From Cruoricaptor ignavus (GTDB lineage Bacteria; Bacteroidota; Bacteroidia; Flavobacteriales; Weeksellaceae), in contig NZ_FQYI01000004.1 of assembly GCF_900141665.1 (NCBI RefSeq), forward strand, positions 1-64,000: a stretch of DNA of 64,000 nucleotides. The letters are read 5' to 3'. Position numbers and translations under genes: made by a program. Within the stretch, counting starts at the first letter, position 1; every line of letters starts with the position of its first letter. Below are positions 1 to 58,378 of this stretch, piece by piece. The notes under the pieces were generated by a model. The model worked only from the letters and a program-made list of their open reading frames with translations, searched no databases and was not told the DNA's origin.

Positions 1-132
1 CACCCATCCGAAAATCCATTTCTTGTTGATGGCATCGGCTACATAGCGGCTGTCGGTGTAGATGTATTTCAATTCCAGTGTGGTGCGATTAAAAGCCGTT
101 GCTTTCGGCGGAACAAATCTAATAAACTTAGG
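1..132 (-). pseudogene. rnhA: Broken fragment of ribonuclease HI
   Basis: Read on the minus strand, positions 90 to 1 encode a clear piece of RNase HI: YTDSRYVADAINKKW followed by IFGWV, the region around the third catalytic Asp. The frame is closed upstream by TAG at 133-135 and has no start codon. The N-terminal half with the first catalytic Asp and Glu is missing, and NRTTLEL runs straight into YIYTDS, as if about 15 residues were deleted. The remainder would continue left of the window. I read it as a 5'-truncated remnant at the edge of the CRISPR-Cas block. A frameshifted intact gene is the alternative. Confidence 0.6.
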
Positions 133-6894: not shown

Positions 6895-7898
6895 TACCAC
6901 CAGATTTTAAAAGGTTCGTAGCTGTCCATTTTCATAATGTGCTTCACGAGCTTGTAGCATTCCAGCCGGATGAGGTGTCGGTAGCTCACGCTTTTGCCCA
7001 GCGTTCTGTGCTTTATGGTTTCGCCCAGCCTTTCCTCCCAGGCACGAATTACTTTTTGTGTGGAAGATGGCTTCAGCAGGCAGCTGTTGAGATTGGTATC
7101 GAAATCCGATGCGCTGATTTGCCTTTTGTTCAGCAGCGAAAATATTAACCTGTCCACCAGAATGGGCTTGAAGATTTCCGCCAAATCGAGAGCGAGCGAA
7201 TAGCGCCGAAATCCCGGCTCGTGAAGATAGCTGATGGTAGGGTTTAGCTGTGTATGGTAAATCTGATCGAGGCAGGCCGTGTAGCACACCATATTGAGAA
7301 ATGATATCAATGCATTCACCTCATTATTGGGTGGCTGCTTTGTGCGGCTGTTCATTTCAAAACCGTTGATGATTTCGCCAAAGCATTCGTAATACAAAAT
7401 GCGCACATTGCCTTCTATGCCCATCAGTTCGTCAATTTCCGCGGTCTCGCCAATTCGGGAAATAAGGTGCTCAATCTGCGGAATTCTCTCGCCGGTTTCC
7501 CTGCCACGGTTGGCATAGTATTTCAGGTTGCGCAGCATATTGTAGGCGCCGCCTTCCACAAATTTTTGGGCTATGGCCATCCGCTTTTTCTTCGCCGTGT
7601 AATGCTCTACCTGGTGCACCAGCACTTTTCCGCTGAGCAGATATTCCTTCGGCATAAAGCTGCCGGTGTAATGCTCGTAATAATCGAAGAAATGCACGGG
7701 AATCTGGCTCTTGCCGAGAAAATTGTACATAGCGGAGTTGGCATCCAGCGCGCCGAAGCAGTAAAGATTTTTGATGCCTTCTATGGGCAGAAATTTTGGC
7801 GCACCTTCTTTCCCGTGTTCATCCGTGGGTACGAATTTCAGCGTATTATCTTTGCGCGAAAGCCTTCCGGGATTGAACAGGTAGTAGGATTTCTTCAT
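6894..7898 (-). CDS. cas1: CRISPR integrase Cas1 (type I-B style)
   Basis: 334 aa. Metal-site residues are visible: E162 in MGIEGNVR, H226 in YLHEPGFRRYS, and acids D238/E241 in LALDLAEIFKP. The protein begins KKSYYLFNPGRLSRKDNTL, as in Cas1 of type I-B loci. It is overlapped by cas4 upstream (4 nt) and cas2 downstream (1 nt). With cas4 and cas2 it forms the only adaptation module here, so it presumably supplies spacers to both effector types. Confidence 0.95.
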   Translation of the reverse strand: MKKSYYLFNPGRLSRKDNTLKFVPTDEHGKEGAPKFLPIEGIKNLYCFGALDANSAMYNFLGKSQIPVHFFDYYEHYTGSFMPKEYLLSGKVLVHQVEHYTAKKKRMAIAQKFVEGGAYNMLRNLKYYANRGRETGERIPQIEHLISRIGETAEIDELMGIEGNVRILYYECFGEIINGFEMNSRTKQPPNNEVNALISFLNMVCYTACLDQIYHTQLNPTISYLHEPGFRRYSLALDLAEIFKPILVDRLIFSLLNKRQISASDFDTNLNSCLLKPSSTQKVIRAWEERLGETIKHRTLGKSVSYRHLIRLECYKLVKHIMKMDSYEPFKIWW

Positions 7899-14286: not shown

Positions 14287-14302
14287 AACTCAACCAATCG
14301 TA

Positions 14303-14310
14303 CAAAGATA
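14303..14310 (-). promoter_or_regulatory. Candidate -7 element for cas8b
   Basis: TATCTTTG on the minus strand matches the Bacteroidota TAnnTTTG box, placing transcription start about 10 nt before the cas8b ATG. The nearest upstream TTTG is only 13 bp away, short of the usual 19-21, so the promoter is only a candidate. Confidence 0.45.
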
Positions 14311-14357
14311 AAAAAATTATATGCAAAAATCATCTTAATAATTCTTTATGTAAATTC

Positions 14358-14405
14358 GTTTTTTAATCGAGCTCTTGTTTTAATCGAGCTCTTGAGAATT
14401 GAAAT
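14358..14405 (+). repeat. Solitary CRISPR-like repeat with a truncated tandem copy
   Basis: The 29-nt unit at 14377-14405 begins GTTTTAATCGAGC and ends GAATTGAAAT. Its last eight bases ATTGAAAT look like the 8-nt 5' handle Cas6 leaves in type I-B crRNAs (ATTGAAAC/T). Directly before it, 14361-14377 is an exact 17-bp copy of 14378-14394. There is no second full repeat and no spacer array. It lies between the stops and starts of cas6 and cas8b, so it is not coding. It could be a decayed array, or a crRNA-like regulatory RNA read on the plus strand toward the cas6 3' end. Confidence 0.6.
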
Positions 14406-14421
14406 AAATATTATCTGAATC

Positions 14422-15207
14422 TTAATTAGGAATTTCTTTTGCTGAAAGAATGCCACAGCCAAGACTATTGTAAGGGCCTGCGCCGGCGTTCATCAACATT
14501 TCCACAAATTTCCTTTCCGCCGTCACCTCAATTTTTAAGTTCATCCAACCTCTGATTTTGGTTTGTTGTGCTGTGCCCTCTTTTATGGTTATCAGTCGGG
14601 ATTTTGGCGGCTTTTGCAATAAAATCGGCTTCAATAAAAGCATTGCATTTTGCGCTGTTTCATCATCATAGCACGCCGCAATTTTGCTGCGCCAGTTAAA
14701 TAATAAGCTTTCTGCAAACCTTGCATCTTCCGGCGAAAGAAAGGTGTAATTACCATTCTCATTTTTCACTGCCGCTACAATTGGCGATAGCGGTTCCAGC
14801 TCCATTTTAATGATTTCGTTCTCCTTTACTTTCTGCAAAGGATTTGGTAAACTCTCTACAGATTTCACGGAAAAAACTGCGCGGGATTTCTTGTCGGCAA
14901 TCTCGATTTTCTGCGACTGAAACAGCCCTTTCACGAAATTCTCCATTGCTTGCGGCAAATGAAACGCAATCTGAAAACTCACCTCATCGGTAAGCAAATT
15001 CATCCTGTCACCATCGATTTCAAACTTGCAGTTCAGCTGAGAAAATGTGAAAAACTTGAAGCCCTTGCCGTAGCCTGTATTATGCAGAAACTCGGCATAC
15101 TCAGCGTCGCCCTGCGAAATGATTTTATAAATCGCCGCACTCATCGGATACTGATAATTGATAGGAATGATGCGGTCCTTCGTCTGCAGCCTGACTAGAA
15201 ATCTCAT
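14422..15207 (-). CDS. cas6: CRISPR RNA endonuclease Cas6
   Basis: 261 aa, two RAMP folds. The C-terminal glycine-rich loop GAGPYNSLGCGIL (242-254) is the Cas6 signature. H42 in EFLHNTGYGKG is the likely catalytic histidine by position. Cas6 cuts precursor crRNA within each repeat for type I-B and normally also for type III-A complexes that share the array. It is the first gene of the run, with a good promoter at 15224-15254 and a 135-bp gap to cas8b. Confidence 0.92.
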   Translation of the reverse strand: MRFLVRLQTKDRIIPINYQYPMSAAIYKIISQGDAEYAEFLHNTGYGKGFKFFTFSQLNCKFEIDGDRMNLLTDEVSFQIAFHLPQAMENFVKGLFQSQKIEIADKKSRAVFSVKSVESLPNPLQKVKENEIIKMELEPLSPIVAAVKNENGNYTFLSPEDARFAESLLFNWRSKIAACYDDETAQNAMLLLKPILLQKPPKSRLITIKEGTAQQTKIRGWMNLKIEVTAERKFVEMLMNAGAGPYNSLGCGILSAKEIPN

Positions 15208-56176: not shown

Positions 56177-58378
56177 TTACCTCGTGAAAAGCATCTCGCG
56201 GTATTTCACCATCGGCCACAGTTCATCATCCACCATCATTTCCACGGCATCGGCAGCATCGCGGATTTTACCAAAACGCGTGCGGACATTGTTGCAGAAA
56301 AAATCTGCCTTTTCCTGCGGGTCGGCTATGGCAAGTGCCTCCGCACGCGCTGCCAGCAGCTCATCTACACCCACCTTGATCTGATGAACATTCGCGGAAA
56401 GTTTCCGTATGAGATCCAGCTGCTCCTTGGCAACTTCCTGAAACTCACCCTCCGGGAATATCTCCTTAAGGCCTTTCACATTATCTACCAGTCTGGTTTG
56501 GTAATTCAACGCTGCAGGGATGATGTGGTTGCGGGCAATATCGCTGAGGACGCGGGCCTCTATATCCACCTCCATACTGTAGTTTTCCAGCTTGATTTCG
56601 TTTCTCGCTTCGAATTCTTTTCTGGTGTAGATGCCGAGTTCCTCGTACAGGTTTATGAATTTTTCATCCAGCTCCAGCTTCAGGGCATCCGGGGTGTTTT
56701 TTTTATTGTTAAGTCCGCGTGCGCCCGCTTCCTGCTCCCATTCGGAGGAGTAGCCATCGCCCTCGAACAAGATTTTTTTCATTTGTTTGATGTAATCCCG
56801 CAGCACATTGAATATCGCCTCATCCTTCTTTAAATCTTTTGTGAAAATCAGCCGGTCAACTTCCTTTTTAAACTCCTGGAGCTGCTTGGCCATAATGGAG
56901 TTCAGCACTATCATCGGCCCAGCGCAGTTTGCCGAGGAGCCTACCGCGCGGAATTCAAATTTATTTCCAGTGAAAGCAAACGGCGAGGTTCTGTTTCGGT
57001 CGGTATTATCGAGCAGGATTTCCGGGATTTTGCCGACCACATTCAGTTTCAGCTGGGTTTTTTCCTCGGGGGATAGTTTGCCGTCGTTCACTTTTTCCAG
57101 CTCATCCAGCACGGAATAGAGGTGGCTGCCGATGAATGCGGAGATGATGGCCGGCGGAGCCTCATTGGCGCCAAGCCTGTAATCGTTGCTCGCGGAAGCT
57201 ATGCTGGCGCGCATTAAATCTGCATAATCGTGTACAGCCTTCAGAGTATTGATGAAAAATGTGAGGAACCGAAGGTTTTTCTTCGGATTTCTTCCGGGGC
57301 TCAGCAGGTTTTCGCCCGTATCTGTGCTAAGGGACCAGTTGTTGTGCTTGCCGCTGCCGTTCACGCCTGCGAAGGGTTTTTCGTGGAAAAGGATGTGGAA
57401 ATGGTGGCGGTGGGCGATGCGTGCCATCACATCCATCAGCAGCGAGTTATGGTCTACAGCGATATTGGCCTCCTCGAACATCGGTGCCAGCTCGTACTGG
57501 TTAGGCGCCACCTCGTTGTGCCGCGTAGTTACCGGGATGCCCAGCTTTATACATTTTATTTCCAGCTCTTTCATAAAATTCATCACCCGGGTGGGGATCG
57601 AGCCAAAATAGTGGTCTTCCAGCTGCTGCCCTTTCGCTGGGGCGTGGCCAAGGAGTGTTTTCCCGGTAATTACAAGGTCCGGCCTTGCCTGGTACAGCGC
57701 GGTATCCACGAGGAAGTATTCCTGCTCCCAGCCGAGGGTGGCTATCACCTTGTTTACATTTTTATCAAAATATGATCTGCAAACCTCCGTGGCAGCCGCA
57801 TCTACAGCGTTCAGAGCGCGCAGCAGAGGAGTTTTATAATCAAGCGCCTCGCCTGTGTAGGAGATGAAGATAGAAGGGATGCACAACGTGGTACCCATGA
57901 TGAACGCCGGGGAGGTGGGATCCCAGGCGGTGTAGCCGCGCGCCTCGAAGGTGTTTCGGATGCCTCCGTTCGGGAAGGAGGAGGCATCCGGCTCTTGCTG
58001 AATGAGCATATTGCCGCTGAAGCGCTCGATGGCGCGGCCGTCTTCCGTAGGCGTGAAGAAGGAGTCGTGCTTCTCTGCCGTGGTACCGGTGAGCGGCTGG
58101 AACCAGTGCGTATAGTGCGTGACGCCCTTGCTCATCGCCCAGTCCTTCATTGCTGCGGCGATCTGGTCCGCCGTGTGCCGCGGGATTTTTTCCCCGTATT
58201 TCATGGCAGACTGTATGGCGGAAAAAGCCTCCCTGGTAAGGTAGGCACGCATCGTATTTTCGTTAAAAACATTCTCTCCGAACAGGTCCGAAAGTTTTTC
58301 AGGTACCTGCACGGCATTTTCTCTTCTATAATCTCTGAATGGAAGCGTTTTAAGCGCATTAAATCTTAAAGTGGACAT
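56177..58378 (-). CDS. glnN: Type III glutamine synthetase GlnN
   Basis: 733 aa, the length of GSIII. HYTHWFQPLTGTTAEKHDSF near residue 90 is the GSIII hallmark. GWEQEYFLVD, TRHNEVAPNQYELAP and GSGKHNNWSLST give the metal, glutamate and ATP sites. GSIII forms dodecamers and makes glutamine from glutamate and ammonia. No PII gene is adjacent. A TAACTTTG box at 58399-58406 lies 20 bp upstream. Confidence 0.96.
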   Translation of the reverse strand: MSTLRFNALKTLPFRDYRRENAVQVPEKLSDLFGENVFNENTMRAYLTREAFSAIQSAMKYGEKIPRHTADQIAAAMKDWAMSKGVTHYTHWFQPLTGTTAEKHDSFFTPTEDGRAIERFSGNMLIQQEPDASSFPNGGIRNTFEARGYTAWDPTSPAFIMGTTLCIPSIFISYTGEALDYKTPLLRALNAVDAAATEVCRSYFDKNVNKVIATLGWEQEYFLVDTALYQARPDLVITGKTLLGHAPAKGQQLEDHYFGSIPTRVMNFMKELEIKCIKLGIPVTTRHNEVAPNQYELAPMFEEANIAVDHNSLLMDVMARIAHRHHFHILFHEKPFAGVNGSGKHNNWSLSTDTGENLLSPGRNPKKNLRFLTFFINTLKAVHDYADLMRASIASASNDYRLGANEAPPAIISAFIGSHLYSVLDELEKVNDGKLSPEEKTQLKLNVVGKIPEILLDNTDRNRTSPFAFTGNKFEFRAVGSSANCAGPMIVLNSIMAKQLQEFKKEVDRLIFTKDLKKDEAIFNVLRDYIKQMKKILFEGDGYSSEWEQEAGARGLNNKKNTPDALKLELDEKFINLYEELGIYTRKEFEARNEIKLENYSMEVDIEARVLSDIARNHIIPAALNYQTRLVDNVKGLKEIFPEGEFQEVAKEQLDLIRKLSANVHQIKVGVDELLAARAEALAIADPQEKADFFCNNVRTRFGKIRDAADAVEMMVDDELWPMVKYREMLFTR

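Follow-up and report, generated by a model that had tools for sequence, protein, structure and literature searches.

The 64,000-nucleotide stretch of DNA analysed here (the window) carries, on its minus strand, a hybrid type I-B/III-A cas operon in the order cas6, gap, cas8b, cas7, cas5, cas3, cas4, cas1 and cas2, followed by a set of csm (III-A) genes that extends to about position 329; a single cas6 is common to the I-B genes and the csm genes behind them. The gap between cas6 and cas8b is 135 nucleotides long (14287-14421). The first-pass annotation had described it as containing a lone repeat with an exact 17-bp tandem copy and no array, and this description was borne out. The repeat, GTTTTAATCGAGCTCTTGAGAATTGAAAT, occupies 14377-14405, and TTTTAATCGAGCTCTTG is present as two exact tandem copies, at 14361-14377 and 14378-14394 (Table 1). 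Rather than at least two repeats with a spacer between them, as in a CRISPR array, the gap holds two 17-bp copies that abut directly. The orientation of the lone repeat had not been reported: it belongs to the plus strand, opposite to the cas operon, and is therefore antisense. The promoter of cas8b displays a −7-type box of the form TAnnTTTG, the offset of which from the cas8b ATG (−24) is the same in the window and in a related locus of Emticicia (L062).

Table 1. Positions of the elements discussed in the text, in window coordinates
Feature	Position	Strand	Remarks
Degenerate CRISPR repeat (psiR1)	14377..14405	+	Altered between the conserved ends TTTTAATCG and GAATTGAAAT
5′ handle ATTGAAAT of psiR1	14398-14405	+	
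Exact 17-bp tandem copy of the 5′ half of the repeat	14361..14377	+	Duplication just upstream of psiR1
Spacer-like psiS, AAATATTATCTGAATC	14406..14421	+	Putative, placed from the repeat orientation; continues into antisense sequence of the 3′ end of cas6
Candidate weak −7-like box TAAATTCG of an antisense transcript	14351..14358	+	Imperfect; putative
Candidate protospacer	14325..14339	+	Antisense strand, upstream of cas8b; 12/15 match to psiS
cas6	14422..15207	−	Flank upstream of the gap
cas8b, 595 aa	12499..14286	−	Downstream flank; presumed regulated gene; identity from position and alignment with relatives
cas8b promoter −7-type box TATCTTTG (TAnnTTTG)	14303..14310	−	24 nt before the ATG
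Leader-proximal repeat of the array (most likely), CTTTTAATCGCACCACACTGGAATTGAAAT	66..95	−	Found with the repeat model; remainder of the array not assembled

For comparison, 19 related I-B loci were retrieved through Cas7 (their array repeats are exemplified by CTTTTAATCGCACCAATATGGAATTGAAAC), and a sequence-only repeat model was built from 11 array repeats of relatives. The strong match of this model (29.2 bits, E = 6.6e-8) is the repeat at 66-95, which the first-pass annotation had not reported. It lies downstream of the csm genes and behind a leader that ends AACGG; the leaders of several relatives end ACGG or AACGG. It most probably represents the locus’s own array, as its leader-proximal repeat. 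Pattern and model searches of the whole genome for other arrays or repeats returned only this repeat and the lone one. Next to the array repeat, in place of a spacer and a second repeat, positions 1-65 of the window carry a 65-nt rnhA-like coding sequence that is close to the genome’s own rnhA (the latter found in L043), and the contig end at 1-95 looks chimeric.

The comparison of the lone repeat with the genome’s CRISPR repeat, which the first-pass annotation had proposed, showed that both ends, TTTTAATCG and GAATTGAAAT, are common to the lone repeat and CTTTTAATCGCACCACACTGGAATTGAAAT, whereas the centre differs. The repeat model scores the lone repeat at 10.6 bits, with an E value of 0.057 over 64 kb and of 2.0 genome-wide, the latter not significant, for a match inside the cas gap. 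The lone repeat is unique genome-wide when up to three mismatches are allowed. Ten copies each of TTTTAATCG and GAATTGAAAY are present in 594 kb of this genome, never paired at repeat spacing, and a chance resemblance is therefore unlikely. Ectopic creA repeats are degenerate but retain the Cas6 and handle nucleotides (PMC9458426, PMC8501985). Judged by its sequence, the lone repeat is CRISPR-derived, its ends kept and its middle changed in the manner of the degenerate psi-repeats of creA genes.

Downstream of psiS, we recognised no psiR2 (a second repeat whose conserved 5′ half would follow the handle at about 24-30 nt) in the window. A candidate at about 14417 (ATCTTAATTAGG) was rejected, as it would leave a spacer of only about 13 nt and its identity is weak. 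On the other side of the repeat, the spacing from the candidate box TAAATTCG to the handle is 22 nt when the 17-bp duplication is left out, and 21 nt in the L062 counterpart. Examination of the gap gave no clear −33 element and no terminator for the putative antisense transcript, the folding of the element as RNA does not stand out (z of 0.3-1.0), and an Rfam search returned nothing.

Mini-arrays are said to have been surveyed by Shmakov et al. in 2023 (NAR 51:8150). Among the related I-B loci, full psiR1-psiS-psiR2 mini-arrays are present in the cas6-to-cas8b region of three, those of Emticicia aquatica (L062), a Spirosomataceae MAG (L075) and a Saprospiraceae MAG (L070). The first two mini-arrays are antisense and upstream of cas8b, and the third is sense. 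In L062, promoter-like boxes of the mini-array’s own, TTTG-N20-TATCTTTG, are located directly upstream of it, and the cas8b promoter repeats the start of the spacer, TTAGTTATTTTG, over 11 contiguous bases with the 5′ flank ACCA, 42 nt before the ATG. In L075 the target has CGCA as its flank and coincides in part with the −33 region of a promoter that precedes the cas8b start by about 300 nt. The L070 spacer is matched over 11 contiguous bases, again beside ACCA, just ahead of a gene for a PIN-like DUF5615 protein, which a DUF433 gene precedes. In all three loci the seed (nt 1-5 and 7-11) matches at 10 of 10 positions at a CA-flanked site, a result reached by 8, 8 and 14 of 20,000 spacer shuffles for the three relatives, and it is from these self-targets that we infer a CA-3′ PAM. 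The mismatches fall at nt 12 in all three and at nt 6 in L075; the same two positions, nt 6 and 12, are unpaired in haloarchaeal I-B CreA (PMC8501985). Elements of this kind, with targets that are well formed by these predictions, occur in this I-B clade. In the loci whose Cas8b is closest (Parabacteroides, L058 and L114), the gap is very short and contains no such element, and the mini-array is absent from most relatives that do have a gap. Extra loci from the phylum, the class and two families of relatives yielded no further mini-array. Cas8b relatives in the family and order came down to one distant locus (G294), the gap of which is without a clear element; plasmids and viral contigs gave none, and the collections contained no relative from this genome’s own genus or species.

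A search of the window spacer under crRNA seed rules, also proposed by the first-pass annotation, led to the cas8b promoter but to no site with a strict seed match. The antisense strand about 40 nt before the cas8b ATG reads TGC followed by AAAAATCATCTTAATA, and psiS matches this sequence, ungapped, at 12 of 15 positions. The 8-nt match to the cas8b upstream region that had been reported earlier (ATCTTAAT) is real; the alignment given here is another one of the same region, in which the start of the spacer pairs with the candidate protospacer. The probability of a 12/15 match is 0.02-0.04 over the gap and 0.002-0.004 at that position alone; these values are modest, and the position-limited test was framed after L062 was seen. 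In strict register the 5′ flank of the protospacer is TGC; a 1-nt bulge brings GCA (14323-14325) into this place, which resembles L075 (bulged p = 0.003-0.008). In register with a CA flank, however, psiS pairs at only 5 of the 10 seed positions, and the 8 of 10 attained when the seed is shifted by one base are reached by 587 of 20,000 shuffles. Haloarchaeal CreA lost its antitoxic effect when any one of the ten seed nucleotides was altered (PMC8501985). Elsewhere in the genome, of which about 0.6 Mb was examined directly and the remainder was covered by searches, psiS has chance-level AT-rich matches only, none of them better. Within the window, the best site with a CA flank (9/10, at 57768) falls inside coding sequence, on the strand opposite a 733-aa ORF, and was rejected as a target. 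Two matches of array spacers are informative about the PAM; their flanks, TGT and GCA, are mutually inconsistent.

Our preferred but tentative interpretation is that a small crRNA-like gene of mini-CRISPR origin runs antisense to the operon here, that it is of the CreR (cas-repressing) kind, and that the lone repeat is its psiR1. CreR RNAs are crRNA-like autorepressors of type I and V-A loci (PMC12737573). In the model we propose, a short antisense RNA would start just left of the repeat and would be cut by Cas6 8 nt before the repeat end. The Cas6-dependent product, predicted to begin AUUGAAAUAAAUAUU and to have its 5′ end at 14398, would consist of the handle AUUGAAAU followed by AAAUAUUAUCUGAAUC... 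and would be loaded into the type I-B Cascade. Partial complementarity would then guide Cascade to the cas8b promoter, where it would not cut but would block cas8b together with the genes downstream of it, and spare Cascade would in this way lower its own synthesis. An autorepressor of cas8b of the CreR type would be expected at this place and in this orientation. Since its seed is displaced from the register by one base, the window copy as it stands today is probably weak or decaying. The crRNA-like regulator suggested by the first-pass annotation is supported by the ends shared with the array repeat, the position adjoining the cas8b promoter and the existence of related I-B mini-arrays with perfect-seed targets; the target of this copy stays a candidate, fitted by the spacer only with a one-base slip.

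Set against known systems, the window element shares with CreR a degenerate ectopic repeat with an intact 5′ handle inside a cas locus, a spacer that partly matches a cas promoter, and a location upstream of cas8; it departs from CreR in that it comprises one repeat only, with no psiR2 found, is antisense, and has the displaced seed. It resembles CreA of the CreTA systems of Haloarcula and Halobacterium I-B loci (PMC8501985, PMC9458426) in its cas6-cas8 location and its single psiR, as in H. hispanica, where this gap holds a strong local cas8 promoter (PMC8501985, PMC9458426). Unlike CreA, it has no toxin gene in its gap and breaks the 1-5 and 7-11 seed rule, which L062, L070 and L075 obey. 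The solitary phage repeat units known as Racr (PMC10651486) likewise combine a solitary repeat with an intact handle, but the window repeat is in a host cas operon and not in a phage. CreR-type self-control of Cascade is already known in several type I systems, and, CreR/CreA and mini-arrays being known kinds, the window element would be a further instance. L062, L070 and L075 appear to extend CreR-type control to Bacteroidota-type I-B loci under the same seed rule as in haloarchaea, and they provide concrete guide-target pairs, one of them in a cultured type strain (Emticicia aquatica). The window copy, for its part, may show how a CreR-type regulator weakens.

It is also quite conceivable that the element is a non-functional relic of an antisense mini-array or array fragment that is no longer processed or able to guide Cascade. 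The 5/10 strict seed match, the weakness of the antisense promoter, the lack of a better target in the genome and the absence of the element from most related loci all fit such a relic, and the 17-bp duplication, the one-base slip of the seed and the missing psiR2 can be read as signs of decay. Against a relic stand the two functional ends of the repeat, the Cas6/handle end and the 5′ end, both intact beside a changed middle, and the start of the spacer, whose fit to the expected site still exceeds that of most AT-matched sequence. That AT-rich intergenic DNA should look like a CRISPR repeat by chance has next to no credibility: the genome-wide E value would allow it, but the two conserved ends, never at repeat spacing in the 594 kb, are so spaced in a 135-nt gap inside the cas operon.

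Other readings retain a crRNA-like function and change the effector or the target. A cis-antisense guide for the type III-A (Csm) complex is improbable. Csm could cut cas6-cas8b read-through mRNA, with pairing between handle and flank keeping Cas10 signalling off; an antisense repeat means that spacer and handle both pair perfectly with RNA of the cas strand, and the csm genes follow the I-B genes and share their cas6, but the argument is one of geometry, common to any antisense crRNA-like element. We consider it more doubtful still that one antisense RNA serves both effectors of this hybrid locus through the shared Cas6, acting with Cascade on the cas8b promoter and with Csm on the read-through mRNA, with handle pairing in cis preventing Cas10 activation; if true, this dual-effector RNA would amount to a type III guide that is both self-silencing and encoded in cis. 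Equally remote is the guardian RNA of the first-pass annotation, a CreTA-type arrangement in which a crRNA-like antitoxin would repress a toxic RNA encoded in the gap. In Haloarcula hispanica creTA does sit between cas6 and cas8 (PMC8501985), but here the cas8b promoter, psiS and the repeats fill the 135 nt, neither strand has room for a mini-ORF with a promoter of its own, and 14287-14421 contains neither a candidate nor the space for a toxin RNA gene whose promoter would be the spacer target. This part of the earlier proposal is not supported.

Several features of the related loci are of separate interest. In L070, positions 6990-7820, between cas6 and cas8b, contain two full repeats, the DUF433/DUF5615 pair and a degenerate mini-array. 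CrePA is a protein toxin that is repressed by CreA-Cascade (PMC12737573), and the DUF433/DUF5615 pair is a candidate for a CrePA-like, CRISPR-repressed protein toxin: the mini-array targets the region upstream of the DUF5615 gene inside a cas locus, although the toxin candidate is PIN-like and not KilA-N, and nothing of the kind is present in the window. In L075 (1380-1800), the target promoter is followed by a six-codon ORF (ATG GTG GCT GGA AGT CGA TAA), and the target there could be a creT-like toxic RNA rather than regulation of cas8b. In L062 (7318-7629, minus strand), a small uncharacterised ORF (from MDIFRLYSKK..., 68 aa, no Pfam match) comes after the mini-array in the same orientation and is possibly co-transcribed with it. 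In an Anammoxibacter MAG (L065, 19100-19640), four isolated 3′ repeat halves (CTATAAGGAATTGAAAC) are found past the end of the array, about 160-180 nt apart, and at least three of them lie within longer near-identical units.
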